DNA of 37,787 nucleotides from Rhodospirillaceae bacterium (GTDB taxonomy: Bacteria; Pseudomonadota; Alphaproteobacteria; Bin65), in NCBI GenBank assembly GCA_026709535.1, contig JAPOST010000132.1, positions 1 to 37,787 on the forward strand, in the 5' to 3' direction. Positions 10,619 to 18,287 of the stretch are shown here, piece by piece; within the stretch, counting starts at the first letter, position 1, and every line of letters starts with the position of its first letter. Under the pieces are notes generated by a model. It did not search any database and had not been told where the DNA came from. It saw only the letters and a list, made by a program, of their open reading frames with translations. The position numbers and the translations under genes are program-made.

Positions 10619-11761
10619 GTGACGCCGGGCGCACGATCAGCTACCCTCGTGTTCGTCGTAACCGAGGACTGGTACTTTTGCTCGCACCGTCTCGCGCTTG
10701 CGCGGGCCGCACGGGCGCAGGGATGGCGGGTAGTGGTGGCCACGCGTGTTGATCGCCATGGCGCGAGTATCCGTGATGCTGGCCTGGAGTTGTACCCGCT
10801 GTCGATACGCCGAGGCAGCATGTCGCCACTGGGCGAGTTGCGAACGTTGCTGGAACTGATTTTCCTGTACCGGCGTGAGCGGCCGGCGCTGGTTCATCAC
10901 GTTGCCCTGAAGCCGATCATCTATGGTTCTCTTGCCGCGTTTCTTGCCCGTGTCCCGGCGGTAGTCAATGCCATTGCCGGGCTCGGCTTTGTATTCGTGT
11001 CTCGCAGTGTCATGGCCCGCGCGCTCCGTCCGCTGGTGCGTAGCGCTTACCGTCTTGCCTTTGTGGGTCGCGGCACTTGGATCCTGGTCCAGAACGCGGA
11101 TGACGCAGTAGCCGTGCGGTCTCTGGGCGCGCCTGAGTCGCGAGTCGCACTCATTCCTGGTTCCGGCGTGGACCTGGCACGCTTCGTGCCGACAGCGGAA
11201 CCGGACGGGCCGGTGGTGGTCGCGATGGTGTCGCGGATGCTTCGCGACAAAGGTGTGTTCGAACTGGTGGAGGCCGCGCGGACCTTGTCACGCTCTCATC
11301 CCTCTCTGCGCGTCCGGCTGGTGGGCCCTCCGGACCCGGCGAACCCGTCCAGCGTACGCGCCGAGGCCCTCGCAGGGCTGGCGCGGGAGGGTGTTATTGA
11401 GTGGTGTCCGGGTACTGATGACATTCCCGGGGTGTGGGCGCGCAGCCATGTGGCCGTGCTGCCCTCGTATCGGGAAGGTTTACCCAAGTCGCTCCTTGAG
11501 GCGGCTGCCTGCGGCCGTCCCATGGTGTCTACCGACGTACAAGGTTGCCGTGAATTGGTGCTGCACGAGCGTACGGGCCTTCTGGTGCCGCCTAAGAACG
11601 TGAGTGCCCTTGCCAGAGCCATCGCCCGCCTTGCTGATGATCCCGAACTGCGTGGCCGCCTTGGCCGCGGAGCGCGTAAGCATGTGCAGAGGTTCTCCGA
11701 AACCCGGGTCGTCGGTCAGACCCTTGATCTTTATGCCCAAGTCGTCGAGGTTGTAAGGTGA
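10619..11761 (+). CDS. Glycosyltransferase family 4 (surface polysaccharide)
   Basis: About 380 residues from GTG 10619. The conserved N-terminus of this group, LVFVVTEDWYFCSHRLALARAA, begins about ten codons after it, so the open frame further upstream (to about 10445) is unlikely to be protein. The C-terminal GT-B half has VALIPGSGVDLARF, VVAMVSRMLRDKGVFELVEA and the EX7E motif in EGLPKSLLEAAACGRPMV, which binds the nucleotide-sugar donor. It is a retaining GT-B enzyme, probably acting on the cytoplasmic face to add a hexose or HexNAc to a lipid-linked glycan. A GTG at 10604 is an alternative start. The stop overlaps the next gene by GTGA, giving tight coupling with the downstream sugar-nucleotide and initiating-transferase genes. 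Confidence 0.88.
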   Translation: MTPGARSATLVFVVTEDWYFCSHRLALARAARAQGWRVVVATRVDRHGASIRDAGLELYPLSIRRGSMSPLGELRTLLELIFLYRRERPALVHHVALKPIIYGSLAAFLARVPAVVNAIAGLGFVFVSRSVMARALRPLVRSAYRLAFVGRGTWILVQNADDAVAVRSLGAPESRVALIPGSGVDLARFVPTAEPDGPVVVAMVSRMLRDKGVFELVEAARTLSRSHPSLRVRLVGPPDPANPSSVRAEALAGLAREGVIEWCPGTDDIPGVWARSHVAVLPSYREGLPKSLLEAAACGRPMVSTDVQGCRELVLHERTGLLVPPKNVSALARAIARLADDPELRGRLGRGARKHVQRFSETRVVGQTLDLYAQVVEVVR

Positions 11762-12732
11762 CCTCTATGCAGGCGGTAGTCACCGGGGCCGGGGGCTTCA
11801 TAGGGCGTGCTCTGTGCGAACGGCTGTGCAGTGCTGGTACACGGGTGATCGCGCTGCACCGACGCTCCCGGCCGGGACCTTGGGCCGCCGAGATAATCCA
11901 CGATCTGGTCACAGGTCCCCCGCCCGCCGATGCGCTGGCTGGGGTCGACACCGTGTTCCATTTGGCTGGAAATGCTCATGTTTCCGGCGGCGCAAAGTGC
12001 GACGGTTTGCACAGGGAAAATTCGGTCATTGGTACGAACAACCTGCTGACGGCATGCGGGCCAAAAATACGCCGCTTCACTTACATCAGCAGCGTCAAGG
12101 CGATAGGAGAGTCGACGCCTGTCGCCGGGCTCGACGAGTCGGCAACGCCGCGCCCGACAACGGCCTACGGTCGCGCCAGGCTTGAAGCGGAAGGGCTTGT
12201 ACTCGCCACGGCGTCGACCCGCCATGCGGTGGTGCTGCGCCTCCCGTTGGTTTACGGCCCGGGTATGAAAGGTAACTTGAAGCGTATGCTGCACGGCCTC
12301 GCCTCCGGTCACATGCCGCGATTCCCGGACCTCGGTAGCCGCCGCTCGATGGTGCATGTGCAGGATGTGTGCAATGCCGCCATCGCCGCCATCGCAAATA
12401 CGGCTCTCACGGGCCGCGTTTACTTGATCGCCGACGGCGAAGCCTACAGCCTGCCCAGATTGCAAGCGGCCATGTGCGCCGCGCTTGGACGACCGCTGCC
12501 GCGCATCGCATTGTCGCACTGGATGCTGCGTCTGGCTGCTGCCGGTGGGGATTTGCTGGGCACATTGGGGCGTCGCCCCGTACCTTTCGACTCCGTTGCC
12601 TTGCAGCGCTTGACGCAATCGGCTCTGTATCACGGCGATCGTGCATGCGCCGATTTCGGTTTTGCGCCGCGGCGACAGTTTGAGGATGCCCTTGGCGAGG
12701 TGGTGGAGGTTATGCGAGATTCGGCCTCGTGA
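11758..12732 (+). CDS. NAD-dependent sugar-nucleotide epimerase/4-reductase (WbpV/WreQ-like extended SDR)
   Basis: 324 residues from GTG 11758, which overlaps the previous stop (ATG 11767 is also possible). The Rossmann motif VTGAGGFIGRAL is at the N-terminus, followed by VFHLAGNAHV, the catalytic-serine region FTYISSVKAIGE and VVLRLPLVYGPGMKGNL. In context it is expected to reduce or epimerise at C4 the 4-keto-6-deoxy-HexNAc made by the WbpM-type enzyme at 13747, giving UDP-QuiNAc or UDP-FucNAc. The active-site tyrosine Y137 is present, but the lysine of YxxxK is arginine: TAYGRARLEAE, codon AGG at 12178-12180. Related proteins have YGRSK. This is a conservative change but touches a catalytic residue. 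The final GTGA overlaps the next gene. Confidence 0.85.
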   Translation: MTSMQAVVTGAGGFIGRALCERLCSAGTRVIALHRRSRPGPWAAEIIHDLVTGPPPADALAGVDTVFHLAGNAHVSGGAKCDGLHRENSVIGTNNLLTACGPKIRRFTYISSVKAIGESTPVAGLDESATPRPTTAYGRARLEAEGLVLATASTRHAVVLRLPLVYGPGMKGNLKRMLHGLASGHMPRFPDLGSRRSMVHVQDVCNAAIAAIANTALTGRVYLIADGEAYSLPRLQAAMCAALGRPLPRIALSHWMLRLAAAGGDLLGTLGRRPVPFDSVALQRLTQSALYHGDRACADFGFAPRRQFEDALGEVVEVMRDSAS

Positions 12733-13736
12733 CTGCGTTTGCTCTCTCAGGTGGCATCACTTTGGCGGTCGCGTGGGGTCTGACCTTCGCGCTCTGCCGA
12801 GGTACAGGACCGGTGCTTCTCGACATGCCCAATGCCCGTTCCCTGCATGCTACGCCCAAGCCGCGTAGCGGCGGGCTTGCCATCTTCAGTGGCATCTTGG
12901 TCGGATATCTGGCGCTTGCGATGAAAGGGGCTCTGCCGGATGTCATGATTGTGATGATGGGATGCACGACCTTGGTCTTCATTGTCTCCATCGTCGACGA
13001 CGTTCGTCACGTCTCGCCTGTTCTGCGCTTGGCAGTGCACGCAGCCGCGGCGCTGGGACTTGTGGCAGCGGGACTGGTTTCCAGCAACCTCGCCCTGCCG
13101 GGCTTAGAGATTCATCTGTCTGCTACCGTCGGGACGGTCTTTACGGTTCTGTTTGTCGTCTGGATGACCAATCTCTACAACTTTATGGATGGTATGGATG
13201 GTTTCGCCGGCGGCATGGGAGCTATCGGCTTCGCCGCTTGCGCCGTGCTGGCAATGTTGGGCGGGAGCGCCGATCTGGCGCTCGCGGGTGGGGTCGTCGC
13301 GCTGGCTTGCGTCGGCTTCCTGTGCTTCAATTTTCCACCTGCACGCATCTTCATGGGAGATGCGGGAGCATCGGTACTGGGGTTCGCGGCCGCCGCTCTC
13401 CTTCTGGCTGCAGATCAGGCGCAGGCCTTCCCCTTGTGGATCGGCATCCTCGTCTTCTCACCCTTCATAGCGGACGCAACGCTGACCCTGTTTCGGCGCG
13501 CTTGGCACCGGGAGCGGGTTTGGGAGGCGCATTGTGGCCATTGCTATCAAAGACTTGTGCAACTGGGCTGGAGCCACCGTCGCACGACCCTGTGGGCATA
13601 TGCTCTTATGTTCGCCTGTGCCGCAAGTGCACTGTTAATGATGCATGCCACCAGTGGATGGCAGTGGGTTGCACTATGTGGCTGGGGGAGCGTCTATACT
13701 GTCCTTGTTATTCTCGTTGGCAAGCTGGAAGGCTGA
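12729..13736 (+). CDS. Undecaprenyl-phosphate sugar-1-phosphate transferase (WecA/WbpL/MraY family)
   Basis: 335 residues, polytopic membrane enzyme with about ten hydrophobic segments. It transfers a sugar-1-phosphate from a UDP-HexNAc to undecaprenyl phosphate, the first membrane step of O-antigen or exopolysaccharide assembly. Visible family motifs: NARSLHATPKPRSGGLA after TM1, the Mg-binding aspartates in VSIVDDVRHVSP, the catalytic loop NLYNFMDGMDGFAGG (about 148-162), and the cytoplasmic His-rich loop WEAHCGHCYQRLVQLGWSHRR near the C-terminus, close to WbpL-type enzymes. It starts at GTG 12729 with a 4-base overlap of the preceding stop. With the 4,6-dehydratase and the reductase it makes a complete initiation set for 6-deoxy-HexNAc glycans. 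Confidence 0.92.
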   Translation: MTAFALSGGITLAVAWGLTFALCRGTGPVLLDMPNARSLHATPKPRSGGLAIFSGILVGYLALAMKGALPDVMIVMMGCTTLVFIVSIVDDVRHVSPVLRLAVHAAAALGLVAAGLVSSNLALPGLEIHLSATVGTVFTVLFVVWMTNLYNFMDGMDGFAGGMGAIGFAACAVLAMLGGSADLALAGGVVALACVGFLCFNFPPARIFMGDAGASVLGFAAAALLLAADQAQAFPLWIGILVFSPFIADATLTLFRRAWHRERVWEAHCGHCYQRLVQLGWSHRRTTLWAYALMFACAASALLMMHATSGWQWVALCGWGSVYTVLVILVGKLEG

Positions 13737-13746
13737 AGAGAGCGGC

Positions 13747-15687
13747 ATGGACCTGATTGATCGTATCCGCAGTCGCGCTGCAGCCTTCGTCTGCGATCTG
13801 ATGGCGATTCCGCTTGCTTGGATGGGCGCCGTCTGGCTGCGCTTCAATATGGATCGTATTCCGACTGCTTTTCTTGAGGCGTCACTGGACGCTCTGCCGA
13901 TGGTGATCGTCGTGCAGGCTGCCGCTGCGTGGTCCTTCGGGCTGTATCGCGGTGTGTGGCGCTTCGCTTCGGTACCGGACCTTGTACGCATCGTCAAGGC
14001 GATCGCCACCGGGGTTTGTTTGATCTTGCTGGCGCTGTTTCTGCTGGCGCAAATTCAGGGCATCCCGCGCTCCATCTTCCCGCTCTACGCGGTCATCCTC
14101 CTCGTACTCCTGGGTGGTCCGCGTCTACTCTACCGTTGGAGCAAGGACCGTGGGTTCTATCGACCACAAGGGCGCAAGGCTCTCGTTATCGGCGCTGGCG
14201 AAGCGGGCGAGATGCTGGTGCGAGAATTGCTTCGTAACCGGAATTCCGGTTACGAAGCAATCGGCTTCGTCGACGATGCTTCCGCCAAGCAGGGCCGGGA
14301 GATTCATGGTGTTCGGGTTCTGGGCGATACCGCGAAGATTCCGCGTCTCGTTGAGCGCCTGAGTGCCGATGTCGCTCTGCTTGCGATCCCTGCGGCGACA
14401 TCAAGCCAGATAAGGCGTATTGTGGATTATTGCGAGCAGGCCGGGGTACCCATGAAGACCCTGCCCAGCATCAGGGACTTGCCCTCCGGACGCGCTGGCC
14501 TCGAGTTGTTGCGTGAAGTCTCCATTGAAGATCTGCTGGGTCGCGAGCCGGTGTCACTGAACTGGGCAGGCATTCGCGAAGGCATTGCTGGACGCACCGT
14601 GTTGGTCACAGGCGGCGGTGGCTCCATCGGTGCGGAACTCTCTCGTCAGTTGGCCCGCCTTTCTCCAGCGCGTCTGGTGATCGTCGATGTTAGTGAATTC
14701 AATCTCTTCGAGATCGACCGGGAGCTGAACGAGATCTGGCCTGAAGGAGAGATTCACGCCTTGCTTGGTAACTGCACAGACCGAGTTCGGATGGAAGATA
14801 TCTTCGTACGATTCCGACCATCGCTGGTGTTGCACGCCGCCGCCTACAAGCACGTCCCGCTGCTTGAACACCAAGTCCGCGAAGCGGTGTACAACAACGT
14901 TATTGGTACGCGCCGGACCGCGCATGTGGCAATGCAAAACGGCTGCGAAACCTTTGTGCTCATCTCGACGGACAAGGCCGTGAATCCCAGCAACGTTATG
15001 GGTGCGAGCAAGCGTCTTGCGGAGTTTTGTTGTCAGGGCCTCAACCGGCGTTCCAGCGCTACCCGCTTCGTCACGGTCCGATTCGGCAACGTACTCGACT
15101 CTGCTGGCAGCGTGGTTCCCCTATTCAGGCGCCAGATTGCCCAGGGGGGGCCGGTCACGGTAACGCACCCGGAGGTCATGCGCTACTTCATGACGATTCC
15201 GGAGGCATGCGAACTGATTCTTCAGGCCGCGTCAGTCGGGAAGGGTGGGGATATCTTCGTTCTGGATATGGGCGAGCCGGTGTCGATCAAGTACCTCGCC
15301 CATCAGATGATTCTGCTGTCGGGGCGTAAGCCGGGCAGAGATATCGACATTGTCTACAAAGGACTTCGCCCCGGCGAGAAACTGTTCGAAGAACTGTTTC
15401 ACGAGAGCGAGGCGCTGCGACAGTCCGGCCATCCGAAGCTGCTGCTAGCGGGTCTCAGAGATTTGGACTGGAACGCGTTTGATCGTGAACTGGAGGCGCT
15501 CGAAATGGCTTGTGAGAGCGGGAACGGTGCGCAGGTTCATCAGTATCTTTCGAATCTCGTACCGGAATTTGAAGCTGTGTTCCGTGAAGACAGCAAGATC
15601 ATCCCTATCGGTAAAGCGCAGCGCCAACACAGGGACCGGTCGGTTGAATATCCAGACCGGAGAGTGGATCGAGAAGATCCCGCCTGA
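13747..15687 (+). CDS. Membrane-bound nucleotide-sugar 4,6-dehydratase (WbpM/CapD/FlaA1-like)
   Basis: 646 residues from ATG 13747, close to the size of WbpM. Earlier in-frame starts would run into the previous gene, and AGAG precedes this ATG. The N-terminal part (about 10-120) carries four membrane segments. Next comes a first Rossmann domain (VIGAGEAGEMLVREL, about 148-162), then the extended-SDR catalytic domain (VTGGGGSIGAEL, about 286; AAYKHVPLLE; STDKAVNPSNVMGASKRLAE, about 407-426). The usual SDR tyrosine is methionine (MGASK), as in WbpM, so the expected reaction is UDP-GlcNAc to UDP-4-keto-6-deoxy-GlcNAc. The last ~20 residues (after GKAQRQ) look unconstrained and run toward the IS debris that follows. 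A 36-bp palindrome lies inside the first Rossmann domain. Confidence 0.93.
   Translation: MDLIDRIRSRAAAFVCDLMAIPLAWMGAVWLRFNMDRIPTAFLEASLDALPMVIVVQAAAAWSFGLYRGVWRFASVPDLVRIVKAIATGVCLILLALFLLAQIQGIPRSIFPLYAVILLVLLGGPRLLYRWSKDRGFYRPQGRKALVIGAGEAGEMLVRELLRNRNSGYEAIGFVDDASAKQGREIHGVRVLGDTAKIPRLVERLSADVALLAIPAATSSQIRRIVDYCEQAGVPMKTLPSIRDLPSGRAGLELLREVSIEDLLGREPVSLNWAGIREGIAGRTVLVTGGGGSIGAELSRQLARLSPARLVIVDVSEFNLFEIDRELNEIWPEGEIHALLGNCTDRVRMEDIFVRFRPSLVLHAAAYKHVPLLEHQVREAVYNNVIGTRRTAHVAMQNGCETFVLISTDKAVNPSNVMGASKRLAEFCCQGLNRRSSATRFVTVRFGNVLDSAGSVVPLFRRQIAQGGPVTVTHPEVMRYFMTIPEACELILQAASVGKGGDIFVLDMGEPVSIKYLAHQMILLSGRKPGRDIDIVYKGLRPGEKLFEELFHESEALRQSGHPKLLLAGLRDLDWNAFDRELEALEMACESGNGAQVHQYLSNLVPEFEAVFREDSKIIPIGKAQRQHRDRSVEYPDRRVDREDPA
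14226..14261. repeat. Perfect 36-bp palindrome inside the 4,6-dehydratase gene
   Basis: The left arm 14226-14243 reads ATTGCTTCGTAACCGGAA and the right arm 14244-14261 is its exact reverse complement, with no spacer and an EcoRI-type GAATTC at the centre. The two flanking bases (A 14225, C 14262) do not pair, so the symmetry ends there. It codes for residues LLRNRNSGYEAI of the Rossmann domain, which look normal for this family, so the protein is not visibly disturbed. It could extrude as a cruciform or fold as an 18-bp RNA hairpin without loop. Confidence 0.95.
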
Positions 15688-15740
15688 CGGGGCGAAACGC
15701 TGTCCGGGGATGCAAGCCCAGTATCTTGTCCGCTTTCTAA

Positions 15741-15865
15741 CTGAAGCACATTGTTCACTGATCTGATGATCTCTTCGGCAGATTTGGGCCCAGTGGAATG
15801 GCGGCAACTTCTCGTTGCGGGTCTTCAGATAGCCGCGGATCGTCGACGACGGAACGACTGCAACC
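15741..15865 (-). pseudogene. IS630-family transposase C-terminal fragment
   Basis: On the minus strand the frame reads STIRGYLKTRNEKLPPFHW and then, after a one-base shift at the GGGCCC near 15785-15790, KSAEEIIRSVNNVL. This matches the usual C-terminal end of IS630 transposases, where a Y-x3-NxxPKPFxWTK(S/T)AxEIl sequence closes the protein. Only this tail remains; the DDE catalytic core is absent and the frameshift confirms decay. It abuts an unrelated istB remnant on the opposite strand at about 15862. The family assignment is from memory of the motif; another transposase family with a similar tail cannot be excluded. Confidence 0.6.
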
Positions 15866-16200
15866 TGTCGAGCCGCCTGCGCGTGTCGACATATTCCGCC
15901 CTCCTCGTGGTCGACGAGATCGGCTATCTGCCGGTCAGCTAGGACGATGCCTTGCTGCTCTTCCAGCTCATCAACGCCAGGCACGAAAAGGGGTCCACCG
16001 TGCAGACCTTGAACAAGGGCATTAAGGACTGAAGCGGTGTGCTCGGTGGCAAGGTGATGGCAGCGGTGCTTGTCGACTACATGGTCCACCACGCCACATC
16101 GTCAACATCCGGGCGAACAGCTACAGAATCCGGGATCATCGGAACCTGCTGCAATCCAGCTCGGACCGAGCGCTGCAAGATGGCTGCGTAGTGATCGACG
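15862..16200 (+). pseudogene. istB: IS21-family helper ATPase istB remnant
   Basis: In plus frame 1 the sequence reads RLRVSTYSALLVVDEIGYLPVS, then a TAG at 15940, DDALLLFQLINARHEKGSTV, a TGA at 16030 and VMAAVLVDYMVHH. After a one-base deletion near 16093 the frame continues IVNIRANSYRIRDH. This is the C-terminal half of IstB in correct order: Walker B (LLVVDEIGYLP), the FQLxxARYEKGST segment and the VNIRGNSYRxR end. Both stops correspond to positions that are normally sense (the TGA replaces the Trp of the usual WGEVL). The Walker A half and istA are missing. The sequence GGGTTCAGTTTTTCG at 16255-16269 may be the old right end of the element. Confidence 0.85.
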
Positions 16201-16404: not shown

Positions 16405-16947
16405 TCACCGCTTCTTACGGAAGTAATCCAAGTTTACGACTTCGCCCATCTGCGTCGCTTCTCCGCTCTTCTTGTTCTTCGCGTCGGGATCGATGCTCTT
16501 GTCCTCATTACTGGCAGCCGGGGCAGTGTTGCCAGCATCCAAAACGCTATCCGCGAGAGAGGACCCGATACTTTCGTCTTCCGAGGCTGTCTTGGTCAAC
16601 TCAAACTTGAGCCCGAACGGCACGGACGGATCGGCAAAGGATGTGACGGTGGCGAAAGGCACTTCAAGCTGCTCCTGTCGGCCGCTGAAGCTCAACTCGA
16701 CGAAAAATCGGCCTTTTTCTACTTGGAGATTCCAGAATTGGTGCTCCAAGACGATCGTCATCTCTTCCGGGTAGATGTCGATTAAGCGTTGGGGAACGTC
16801 AACCCCCGGGCCGGTTGTCAGAAAAGTGATATACAGACTGTGCCCTTCGGGCAGGCCGAATGCCATCACCTGTTCCAGCGCCGTTCGGACAACACTGCGC
16901 AAGGCTTCCTCGACGATCTTCTCGTAATGCAGAAGTTCCGGTTCCAT
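16405..16947 (-). CDS. sspB: SspB, ClpXP adaptor for ssrA-tagged proteins (alphaproteobacterial type)
   Basis: 180 residues from ATG 16947, which gives MEPELLHYEKIVEEALR; an open frame extends nine codons further to a TTG but family members start here. SspB binds the tmRNA-encoded degradation tag and delivers tagged polypeptides to ClpXP. The folded domain (about 1-120) has ALRSVVRTALEQV, SLYITFLTTGPGVDVPQRL, the strongly conserved YPEEMTIVLEHQFWNLQV and the tag-binding-groove segment VPFATVTSFADPSVPFGLKFEL. A low-complexity linker follows (about 125-172), ending in GEVVNLDYFRKKR, the short C-terminal ClpX-docking tail typical of SspB proteins. The tmRNA gene itself lies about 165 bp upstream on the same strand. 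A promoter candidate lies between them. Confidence 0.95.
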   Translation of the reverse strand: MEPELLHYEKIVEEALRSVVRTALEQVMAFGLPEGHSLYITFLTTGPGVDVPQRLIDIYPEEMTIVLEHQFWNLQVEKGRFFVELSFSGRQEQLEVPFATVTSFADPSVPFGLKFELTKTASEDESIGSSLADSVLDAGNTAPAASNEDKSIDPDAKNKKSGEATQMGEVVNLDYFRKKR

Positions 16948-16988
16948 CACCCGGCCGAATTTTCTCTCTTTCAAGTCTCAGTTATTCC

Positions 16989-17016: not shown

Positions 17017-17111
17017 GCTTGGAATGTGGCACAGCGGCCGGGTCTCTGACCTACTGCAGTTTCTGTCGACGCGTCATGCAAGATCAGTGGGGCAAGGCAG
17101 CATGTTCTGAA

Positions 17112-17416
17112 AGTGGGAGGCTTCTGTTGCCCGGTGCCTCCCGAACCGCGCTTGCTCAGAAACTAAGCAGCGAGTGCCACACGATCATTGTCGTTAGCAT
17201 TTGTAGTATCAGCCCGATAACGGTGGTACAATACCGGGTGAAAAGCATACCTTTTACTGCACGTCGATCCTGGTTCGCCCCCGTCTTGAGCCGGATCCCG
17301 AGCGGCGCACGGCCACTCGGTCCGAACGAAACTGGTGGAGGCGCCGGGTACTGCCCCCGGGTCCGCAACAGCTATTCCGCAAGCCATTTATCACCATAGT
17401 CATCCAAGGATGACAT
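17112..17416 (-). ncRNA. ssrA: tmRNA (ssrA), circularly permuted two-piece form
   Basis: Transcribed right to left. The acceptor piece comes first (about 17416-17333). It contains a CCGGG/CCCGG arm with a 7-base loop GGCAGTA and ends CGCCTCC followed by encoded ACCA (17336-17333). A spacer of about 50 bases (17332-17283) follows and would be excised. The coding piece begins GGGGGCG at 17282-17276, which pairs with the CGCCTCC strand over 7 bp with one G-U, and continues ...GGATCGACG, the conserved tmRNA 5' element. The tag frame at 17198-17163 reads ANDNDRVALAA then TAG, so the degradation tag is (A)ANDNDRVALAA. A GGGAGGC/GCCTCCC hairpin (17142-17115) closes the piece. Exact ends are inferred. 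tmRNA rescues stalled ribosomes and tags the product for ClpXP. Confidence 0.93.
17163..17198 (-). other. tmRNA tag-peptide reading frame
   Basis: Eleven codons plus TAG: GCT AAC GAC AAT GAT CGT GTG GCA, then CTC GCT GCT TAG, giving ANDNDRVALAA. With the tRNA-borne alanine the tag becomes AANDNDRVALAA. The AANDN start is what alphaproteobacterial SspB recognises, and the terminal LAA is the ClpX signal. The tag is shorter than the common alphaproteobacterial AANDNFAEEFAVAA. Confidence 0.92.
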
Positions 17417-17449
17417 CTTGAATATAAGGCATTGTTCAGCGGATTGGAA
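17399..17449 (-). promoter_or_regulatory. Candidate tmRNA promoter and start-proximal hairpin
   Basis: On the minus strand TATATT (17426-17421) is a good -10; the best-spaced upstream hexamer is TTCCAA (17449-17444, spacing 17), a weak -35. Just downstream, GTCATCC-TT-GGATGAC (17414-17399) is a perfect 7-bp hairpin at the expected 5' end of the precursor, which may protect or guide processing of the acceptor piece. Confidence 0.4.
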
Positions 17450-18287
17450 GAGTGTCGTGCTCCAGCAGTTAACGGCATCTGTGGCCGAACGCTTGATGAA
17501 TTTTCAGAGAGTTTACAGAACCTGCTCGATATCGTGGGCGCGGTAGCATTTGCCAATCGACGTCGAGAGGCCCCGCGCAGCAAAGAAAATGGTCATAAAT
17601 CCTGCCGCTGATCTGGCACGCCGGATCAAGTCCTTTTGGCTGCTGCCGTTAGCTCGCGGCGAAGTCGAGGACAAGGTATAGATTTTTCCGCAATAGCGTG
17701 CTCGGGGCTGCAACTCCTTGCGCCGGTCTTTGGTGCTGGCCAACATGCTGATGGCTAGACCAATGATACCAAAAGCGGGACGGATGCCATCCTTGACTCC
17801 AATTCGCTCTGCTGACGGCCGCCGTCATCACAGGCTTGATACGATGTTGCGCTTGGCGCGATGCAAATAGCTCCGGTACCCGTCGGTCTGTGCATCTTGT
17901 GCGCTGAAAACTAGGAAGAGCGACTTACTTGCTCGGCCCGAGAGTGCAAATAGATTGCGACTGGCGGTGTGCCGCGCCGCAATGAAGCACAGCGCCTGAG
18001 GGCCTGAATCACAAGTCCTTGATATCATGATGTTCTTGTGGATCAGGCCCTGGTCCTCGCGCGAACCTGCGCATGAGGAAGCGGCATGCGGACGGCCATG
18101 CTGCGCCCGGGTGGCCTCGGTCCAGGCCATGGCACCCTCCAGCGTCGGTCGCCAATCTCCCGACAGAGGGCCACAGCCCGAGGCCGCAGGAACAGGCTCT
18201 GAGGCAAGCCTTGCCAACGAATTTTCCGGCCCCGTATCGAACGGTATCGGCAGAGGATCGCGTTGCCGCAACCAGGTTGCTCTCCTG
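17450..18287. other. Gap of about 0.8 kb without a recognisable gene
   Basis: Between ssrA and the UDG gene I found no gene I can name. A minus-strand frame at 17513-17746 (77 codons, from MLASTKDRRKELQPRA to YRAHDIEQVL) reads smoothly. Sixteen more sense codons lie upstream of that ATG in the same frame, so it could be a fragment of a former gene. A minus frame at 17828-18385 overlaps the end of the UDG gene in another frame and looks like a shadow there. No tRNA, IS end or terminator was seen. Confidence 0.4.

Follow-up and report, generated by a model that had tools for sequence, protein, structure and literature searches.

The locus raises the question of how a long and perfect palindrome came to lie within the reading frame of a polysaccharide gene, i.e., by coincidence, through selection for a DNA or RNA element, by insertion, as an artefact of amplification or assembly, or through an error of replication.

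A 36-bp palindrome in a WbpM/PglF-type gene

In the window (i.e., the whole stretch of 37,787 nucleotides that was analysed), the original prediction had placed a perfect, spacer-free 36-bp palindrome at 14226-14261. This was borne out, since the sequence concerned (ATTGCTTCGTAACCGGAATTCCGGTTACGAAGCAAT) equals its own reverse complement, with 18 of 18 pairs matched and no spacer between the arms. The features of the locus are as follows:

13645 to 15687, plus strand: gene for a WbpM/PglF-type membrane nucleotide-sugar 4,6-dehydratase (CoA_binding_3 PF13727 and Polysacc_synt_2 PF02719)
14226 to 14261, no strand: perfect 36-bp palindrome with two 18-bp arms, its centre between 14243 and 14244
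14226 to 14243, plus strand: left arm, codons GAA (last base) TTG CTT CGT AAC CGG AA(T), i.e., E L L R N R N
14244 to 14261, plus strand: right arm, codons (AA)T TCC GGT TAC GAA GCA AT(C), i.e., S G Y E A I
14241 to 14246: EcoRI-type GAATTC at the centre of the palindrome

The peptide encoded across the palindrome reads E-L-L-R-N-R-N-S-G-Y-E-A-I, and the 680-codon frame stays open across both arms and past them. As read from the sequence, each codon position 1 pairs with a position 1 in the other arm, and each position 2 with a wobble position. The same register is known as "phase 1", which is both the least constraining and the commonest one among long coding inverted repeats (PMC6649704).

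The assignment of the host gene to the WbpM type stood as well, with PF13727 and PF02719 both scoring above cut-off in one 680-aa protein. The palindrome is situated inside the PF13727 domain, and the solved chains nearest to the dehydratase half of the protein are the WlaL/PglF dehydratase domain 5bju and its relatives. Upstream of the host gene lie genes for a glycosyltransferase, an epimerase, and a family 4 glycosyl transferase, an arrangement also seen where many polysaccharide clusters end.

The host gene (13645-15687) had no DNA match in six genomes of the same genus, and the nearest relatives of its protein were found outside its own class, including a Chromatiales draft genome and a Legionella plasmid gene. 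On both these grounds, the host gene looks horizontally acquired. Further along the window, a permuted, alphaproteobacterial-type tmRNA gene was identified on the minus strand at 17072-17453 (RF01849; ARAGORN tag ANDNDRVALAA), adjoined by an SspB (PF04386) gene on the same strand at 16405-16974. The type of the tmRNA gene suggests an alphaproteobacterial genome. SspB hands tmRNA-tagged proteins to ClpXP, and the proximity of both genes may therefore be meaningful.

Expected numbers of spacer-free palindromes

Under a composition null, with a pairing probability of 0.257 derived from the base composition of the genome, spacer-free palindromes with arms of at least 18 bp are expected 9 × 10^-7 times per window and 9 × 10^-5 times per genome. 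The second-longest spacer-free palindrome of the window has 8-bp arms. In 0.94 Mb sampled from the same genome, spacer-free arms reached 11 bp at most; those of 7 and 8 bp were observed 65 and 14 times, respectively (51 and 13 expected), and arms of 9 bp were somewhat commoner than expected (11 vs. 3.4). The longest spacer-free arm in 0.57 Mb of other genomes measured 12 bp, and no other long perfect spacer-free palindrome in bacterial coding DNA was seen in the approximately 1.5 Mb examined.

A codon-aware null was also constructed, in which the proteins were kept fixed and synonymous codons were drawn at the window's own usage, covering 22 genes and 26,403 centres. These genes were picked by eye from the table of open reading frames, so that a wrong start or a spurious frame is possible among them, which leaves the order of magnitude unaffected. 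Arms of at least 4, 5, 6, 7, and 8 bp were expected 129, 34, 9.3, 2.4, and 0.66 times under this null, and were observed 116, 41, 12, 3, and 1 times, respectively. For 18-bp arms, the expectation was 2.7 × 10^-7 in the 22 genes, upholding the original claim of a vanishing chance probability. The observed palindrome exceeds what chance and ordinary codon drift would give by about six orders of magnitude, and the shorter palindromes fit the same null. That ordinary substitutions simply happened upon the symmetry is scarcely credible given this expectation for the genes examined, even though a few such coincidences would be expected over very many genomes (at approximately 9 × 10^-5 per genome of this size).

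Moreover, the amino-acid sequence permits a palindrome with 18-bp arms at only 1 of the 26,403 coding centres, namely the observed one, although this count is descriptive because the site was chosen for its symmetry, the expected number being the actual test. Since only this single site is permissive, residues and codons look as if they were set jointly, as in one templated event.

The homologous loop and known classes of element

The tract that carries the palindrome corresponds to a variable loop between a conserved G-E-x-L-x-R block and a conserved G-F-x-D-D block. The 57 nearest homologues are about 47-56% identical to the host protein. In 56 of them, the loop is two codons (6 bp) shorter, and only L003/L173, from the Chromatiales draft genome, has a loop of equal length, which is asymmetric. 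The closest homologue found shows 56% identity, in collections that sample rather than exhaust genomes. In the protein tree, the window gene groups with L003/L173, the Legionella plasmid gene, and two others, and this five-row group has a bootstrap of 97-100%. Judging from these alignments, the tract probably gained 6 bp, either along with the palindrome or earlier; the longer loop of L003/L173, being devoid of symmetry, suggests that the 6 bp may predate the palindrome.

Both arms nevertheless carry residues typical of the family. In the 57 nearest homologues, the Leu at the second position and the Arg/Lys at the fourth position, both in the left arm, are conserved at 91% and 95%, respectively, and the Tyr of the right arm at 96%. 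The view that the palindrome lies in conserved coding sequence thus holds for the flanking blocks, whereas the site itself is a variable loop. Likewise, the claim that the protein is undisturbed is correct as far as Leu, Arg, and Tyr are concerned, all of which are retained, but 56 of the 57 nearest homologues have a loop shorter by two residues.

The symmetry itself is confined to the window gene among the homologues compared. In the 57 nearest homologues, outer pairs were matched on average in 2.79 of 11 cases, vs. 2.88 of 11 when the arms were taken from different genes. A first set of homologues mostly showed 2 to 8 of 18 pairs matched at the homologous position (with one at 10), and no symmetry was seen in a further alignment, which carries little weight by itself as it had one gap-free homologue only. 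The same codons therefore drift in homologous genes and the symmetry is not kept, which argues against a conserved function, and not against the reality of the palindrome.

Searches for further copies were equally negative. Neither the 18-mer half (with up to 2 mismatches) nor the 22-bp core (with up to 3 mismatches) has a second site in the genome, the inner 34 bp (with up to 3 mismatches) are absent from the other genomes of the phylum among 398 searched, and a similarity search against plasmid DNA returned only one 25-bp match at chance level. A 17-bp match in viral contig L079 was set aside as a lone half-site without symmetry. No Rfam family was found at the palindrome, and no promoter-like sites were found in 13500-16000.

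Three further candidates were rejected. An intrinsic terminator would present a G+C-rich hairpin followed by a T run, whereas the bases after the palindrome are CGGCTTCG, and no terminator-like site was detected there. A dispersed repeat is at odds with a palindrome that is single-copy in the genome. Finally, an EcoRI cloning linker, as might be suspected from the central CCGGAATTCCGG, does not account for a symmetry that runs 12 bp past the hexamer core on each side, nor would a linker encode residues of the family. The palindrome is real, is not due to chance, and is not any known element.

An inserted palindromic repeat (i.e., a Rickettsia-type coding element, a REP or MITE, or the footprint of a mobile element) would fit with the tract being 6 bp longer than in most homologues, and Rickettsia, which are also Alphaproteobacteria, carry palindromic elements in coding genes, as far as these are described where PMC6649704 cites them. 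However, at most 6 bp are extra rather than 36, both arms align with conserved family residues, and the sequence is single-copy in its genome and absent from the 398 phylum genomes at up to 3 mismatches, making an insertion very improbable. The Rickettsia elements, going by the same citing source, share with the present case that palindromic DNA is translated within an alphaproteobacterial protein, but they are dispersed block insertions, whereas the palindrome reported here occurs once and lengthens its tract by 6 bp at most.

Selection for a DNA or RNA element within the gene also has to be weighed, be it an operator bound by a protein, a cruciform, or a hairpin in the mRNA that tunes expression of the gene. 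The symmetry is perfect across 36 bp, and for the RNA of 14196-14291 the folding energy is -49.4 kcal/mol, compared with -30.8 (sd 3.6) for shuffled sequences (z -5.1); this low folding energy nevertheless results from the palindrome itself, as any perfect palindrome would fold so. Other long inverted repeats of the genome are intergenic, one of them beside a TetR-like regulator gene, from which it follows that such elements exist in this genome. On the other hand, a binding site rarely needs 18 perfect bp per arm, no second genomic site exists for the 18-mer half or the 22-bp core, the symmetry is absent from every homologue examined, and the locus offers no promoter-like site (13500-16000), no terminator-like site at the palindrome, and no RNA family. 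The selected origin entertained in the original prediction thus found no support, and we consider such an element rather unlikely. Similarly, it seems improbable that a functional intragenic element (binding site or cruciform) controls the polysaccharide gene and was selected together with the protein sequence in this lineage only. The palindrome probably does not act as a switch but was left as a scar of evolution.

With regard to the other inverted repeats of the genome, the one at L123 (G000:C96), 11758-11792, has 16-bp arms and a 3-bp spacer and lies between divergent genes, one of which has a TetR-like start; it looks like an ordinary operator. Two near-perfect palindromes with a one-base spacer were found at L132 (G000:C105), i.e., at 3-49 and 156-204, with arms of 23 and 24 bp, respectively. 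Their arms differ, but they have the centre GTCCTTAGGAC in common, and these two centres are the only exact copies of this 11-mer in the genome. Both palindromes lie within 210 bp of the contig end, and a relaxase-like reading frame was noticed by eye in their vicinity.

Template switching as the probable origin of the palindrome

Among the three origins originally proposed, a recombination product fits best, or more exactly a replication template switch. We regard it as probable, if by no means assured, that the palindrome is the scar of such a switch, of the quasipalindrome type, within a polysaccharide gene and in a loop that tolerates change. During copying of the tract, which is assumed to have been partly complementary already, the growing strand would have moved to the nascent or the opposite strand, used one arm as template for the other, which thereby became its reverse complement, and then returned to the original template, leaving perfect symmetry behind. 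The same event would probably have added the 6 bp (two codons) to the loop. Its product could have survived by virtue of a retained frame and the preserved Leu, Arg, and Tyr. One event of this kind would fix codons and residues together, and would require no function at the DNA level. The template switch itself, the earlier partial symmetry, and the gain of 6 bp in the same event are what we infer.

As for the geometry of the event, a few bases in the loop of the hairpin would stay uncopied if the strand merely folded back on itself, so that a product without spacer calls either for loop bases complementary to themselves (AATT) or for the opposite strand as template. The best homologue is only 56% identical, too distant for reconstructing the ancestral tract or for locating the points at which the strand switched. 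Codon usage in the left arm is somewhat less favoured than in the right arm (the 13-codon stretch ranks 166 of 668, which is not extreme), and the residue profiles, in which homology is kept in both arms, indicate no donor direction.

When the copying of one arm onto the other was simulated in present homologues, right-to-left copies yielded PAH, PAG, and similar residues, usually with loss of the conserved ones, and left-to-right copies yielded RAA or stops. Since such copying usually destroys the conserved residues, the starting sequence must have been favourable beforehand, or else only a rare compatible event survived.

These simulations also bear on an artefact, i.e., an in vitro template switch during amplification or a wrong join in the draft consensus. 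The assembly is a draft in 203 contigs, and switches of this kind are also made by polymerases in vitro. Yet a random fold-back normally breaks the frame or the conserved residues, as the simulated copies do, whereas here the 680-codon frame is intact, with homology on both sides and with the conserved Leu, Arg, and Tyr kept in the arms. In addition, the palindrome lies far from either end of the window, which is a single continuous contig. A simple assembly fold-back is unlikely in view of the intact 680-aa frame with its conserved residues running through both arms, and an artefact in general is unlikely too, if still deserving some weight.

A replication template switch, on the other hand, has precedents of several kinds. 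For quasipalindromes of Escherichia coli, it is established that template switches make inverted repeats perfect (PMC7202029, PMC6357072), such switches alter coding sequences in yeast genes (PMC8604942), and template switching gives birth to perfect stems (PMC8794818). The E. coli thyA hotspot and lacZ quasipalindrome reporters (PMC7202029, PMC6357072) resemble the present locus in having a perfect inverted repeat within a gene, and with an 18-bp lacZ quasipalindrome reporter, the arm length found here is in the same range. However, the E. coli events are laboratory-selected with known states before and after, whereas here the product alone is seen and is spacer-free. The yeast mutations (PMC8604942) likewise share homogenised inverted-repeat arms in coding DNA and neighbouring amino-acid changes, but were inferred from close strains, in contrast to a nearest homologue of 56% identity here.

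Coding palindromes of Nematomorpha mitochondria (PMC6649704) offer a further parallel, in that a perfect inverted repeat lies in an open frame with conserved residues encoded by both arms. Nevertheless, those palindromes are numerous and up to 284 bp long, whereas the present one is single, 36 bp long, bacterial, and without spacer. An abundance of that type was not encountered, as no other spacer-free arm longer than 11 bp was present in 0.94 Mb of the genome.

Regarding the repair background of the organism, the exonuclease I C-terminal family (PF08411) had no match in the genome, and was found in only 1 of 14 control genomes. Exonuclease I reportedly aborts template switching, according to a study cited in PMC6357072. 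Since its absence is ordinary among the control genomes, it lends weak support at most to a template switch. For SbcCD, matches to SbcD-like proteins were weak and below cut-off.

If the palindrome were functional, it would be all the more surprising. As the scar of a template switch, it would show in a clean natural case how about a dozen codons could be rewritten together by one replication error without loss of a plausible protein. Moreover, the codon-aware null, combining permitted sites with an expected number, would allow the frequency of such events to be estimated across genomes.
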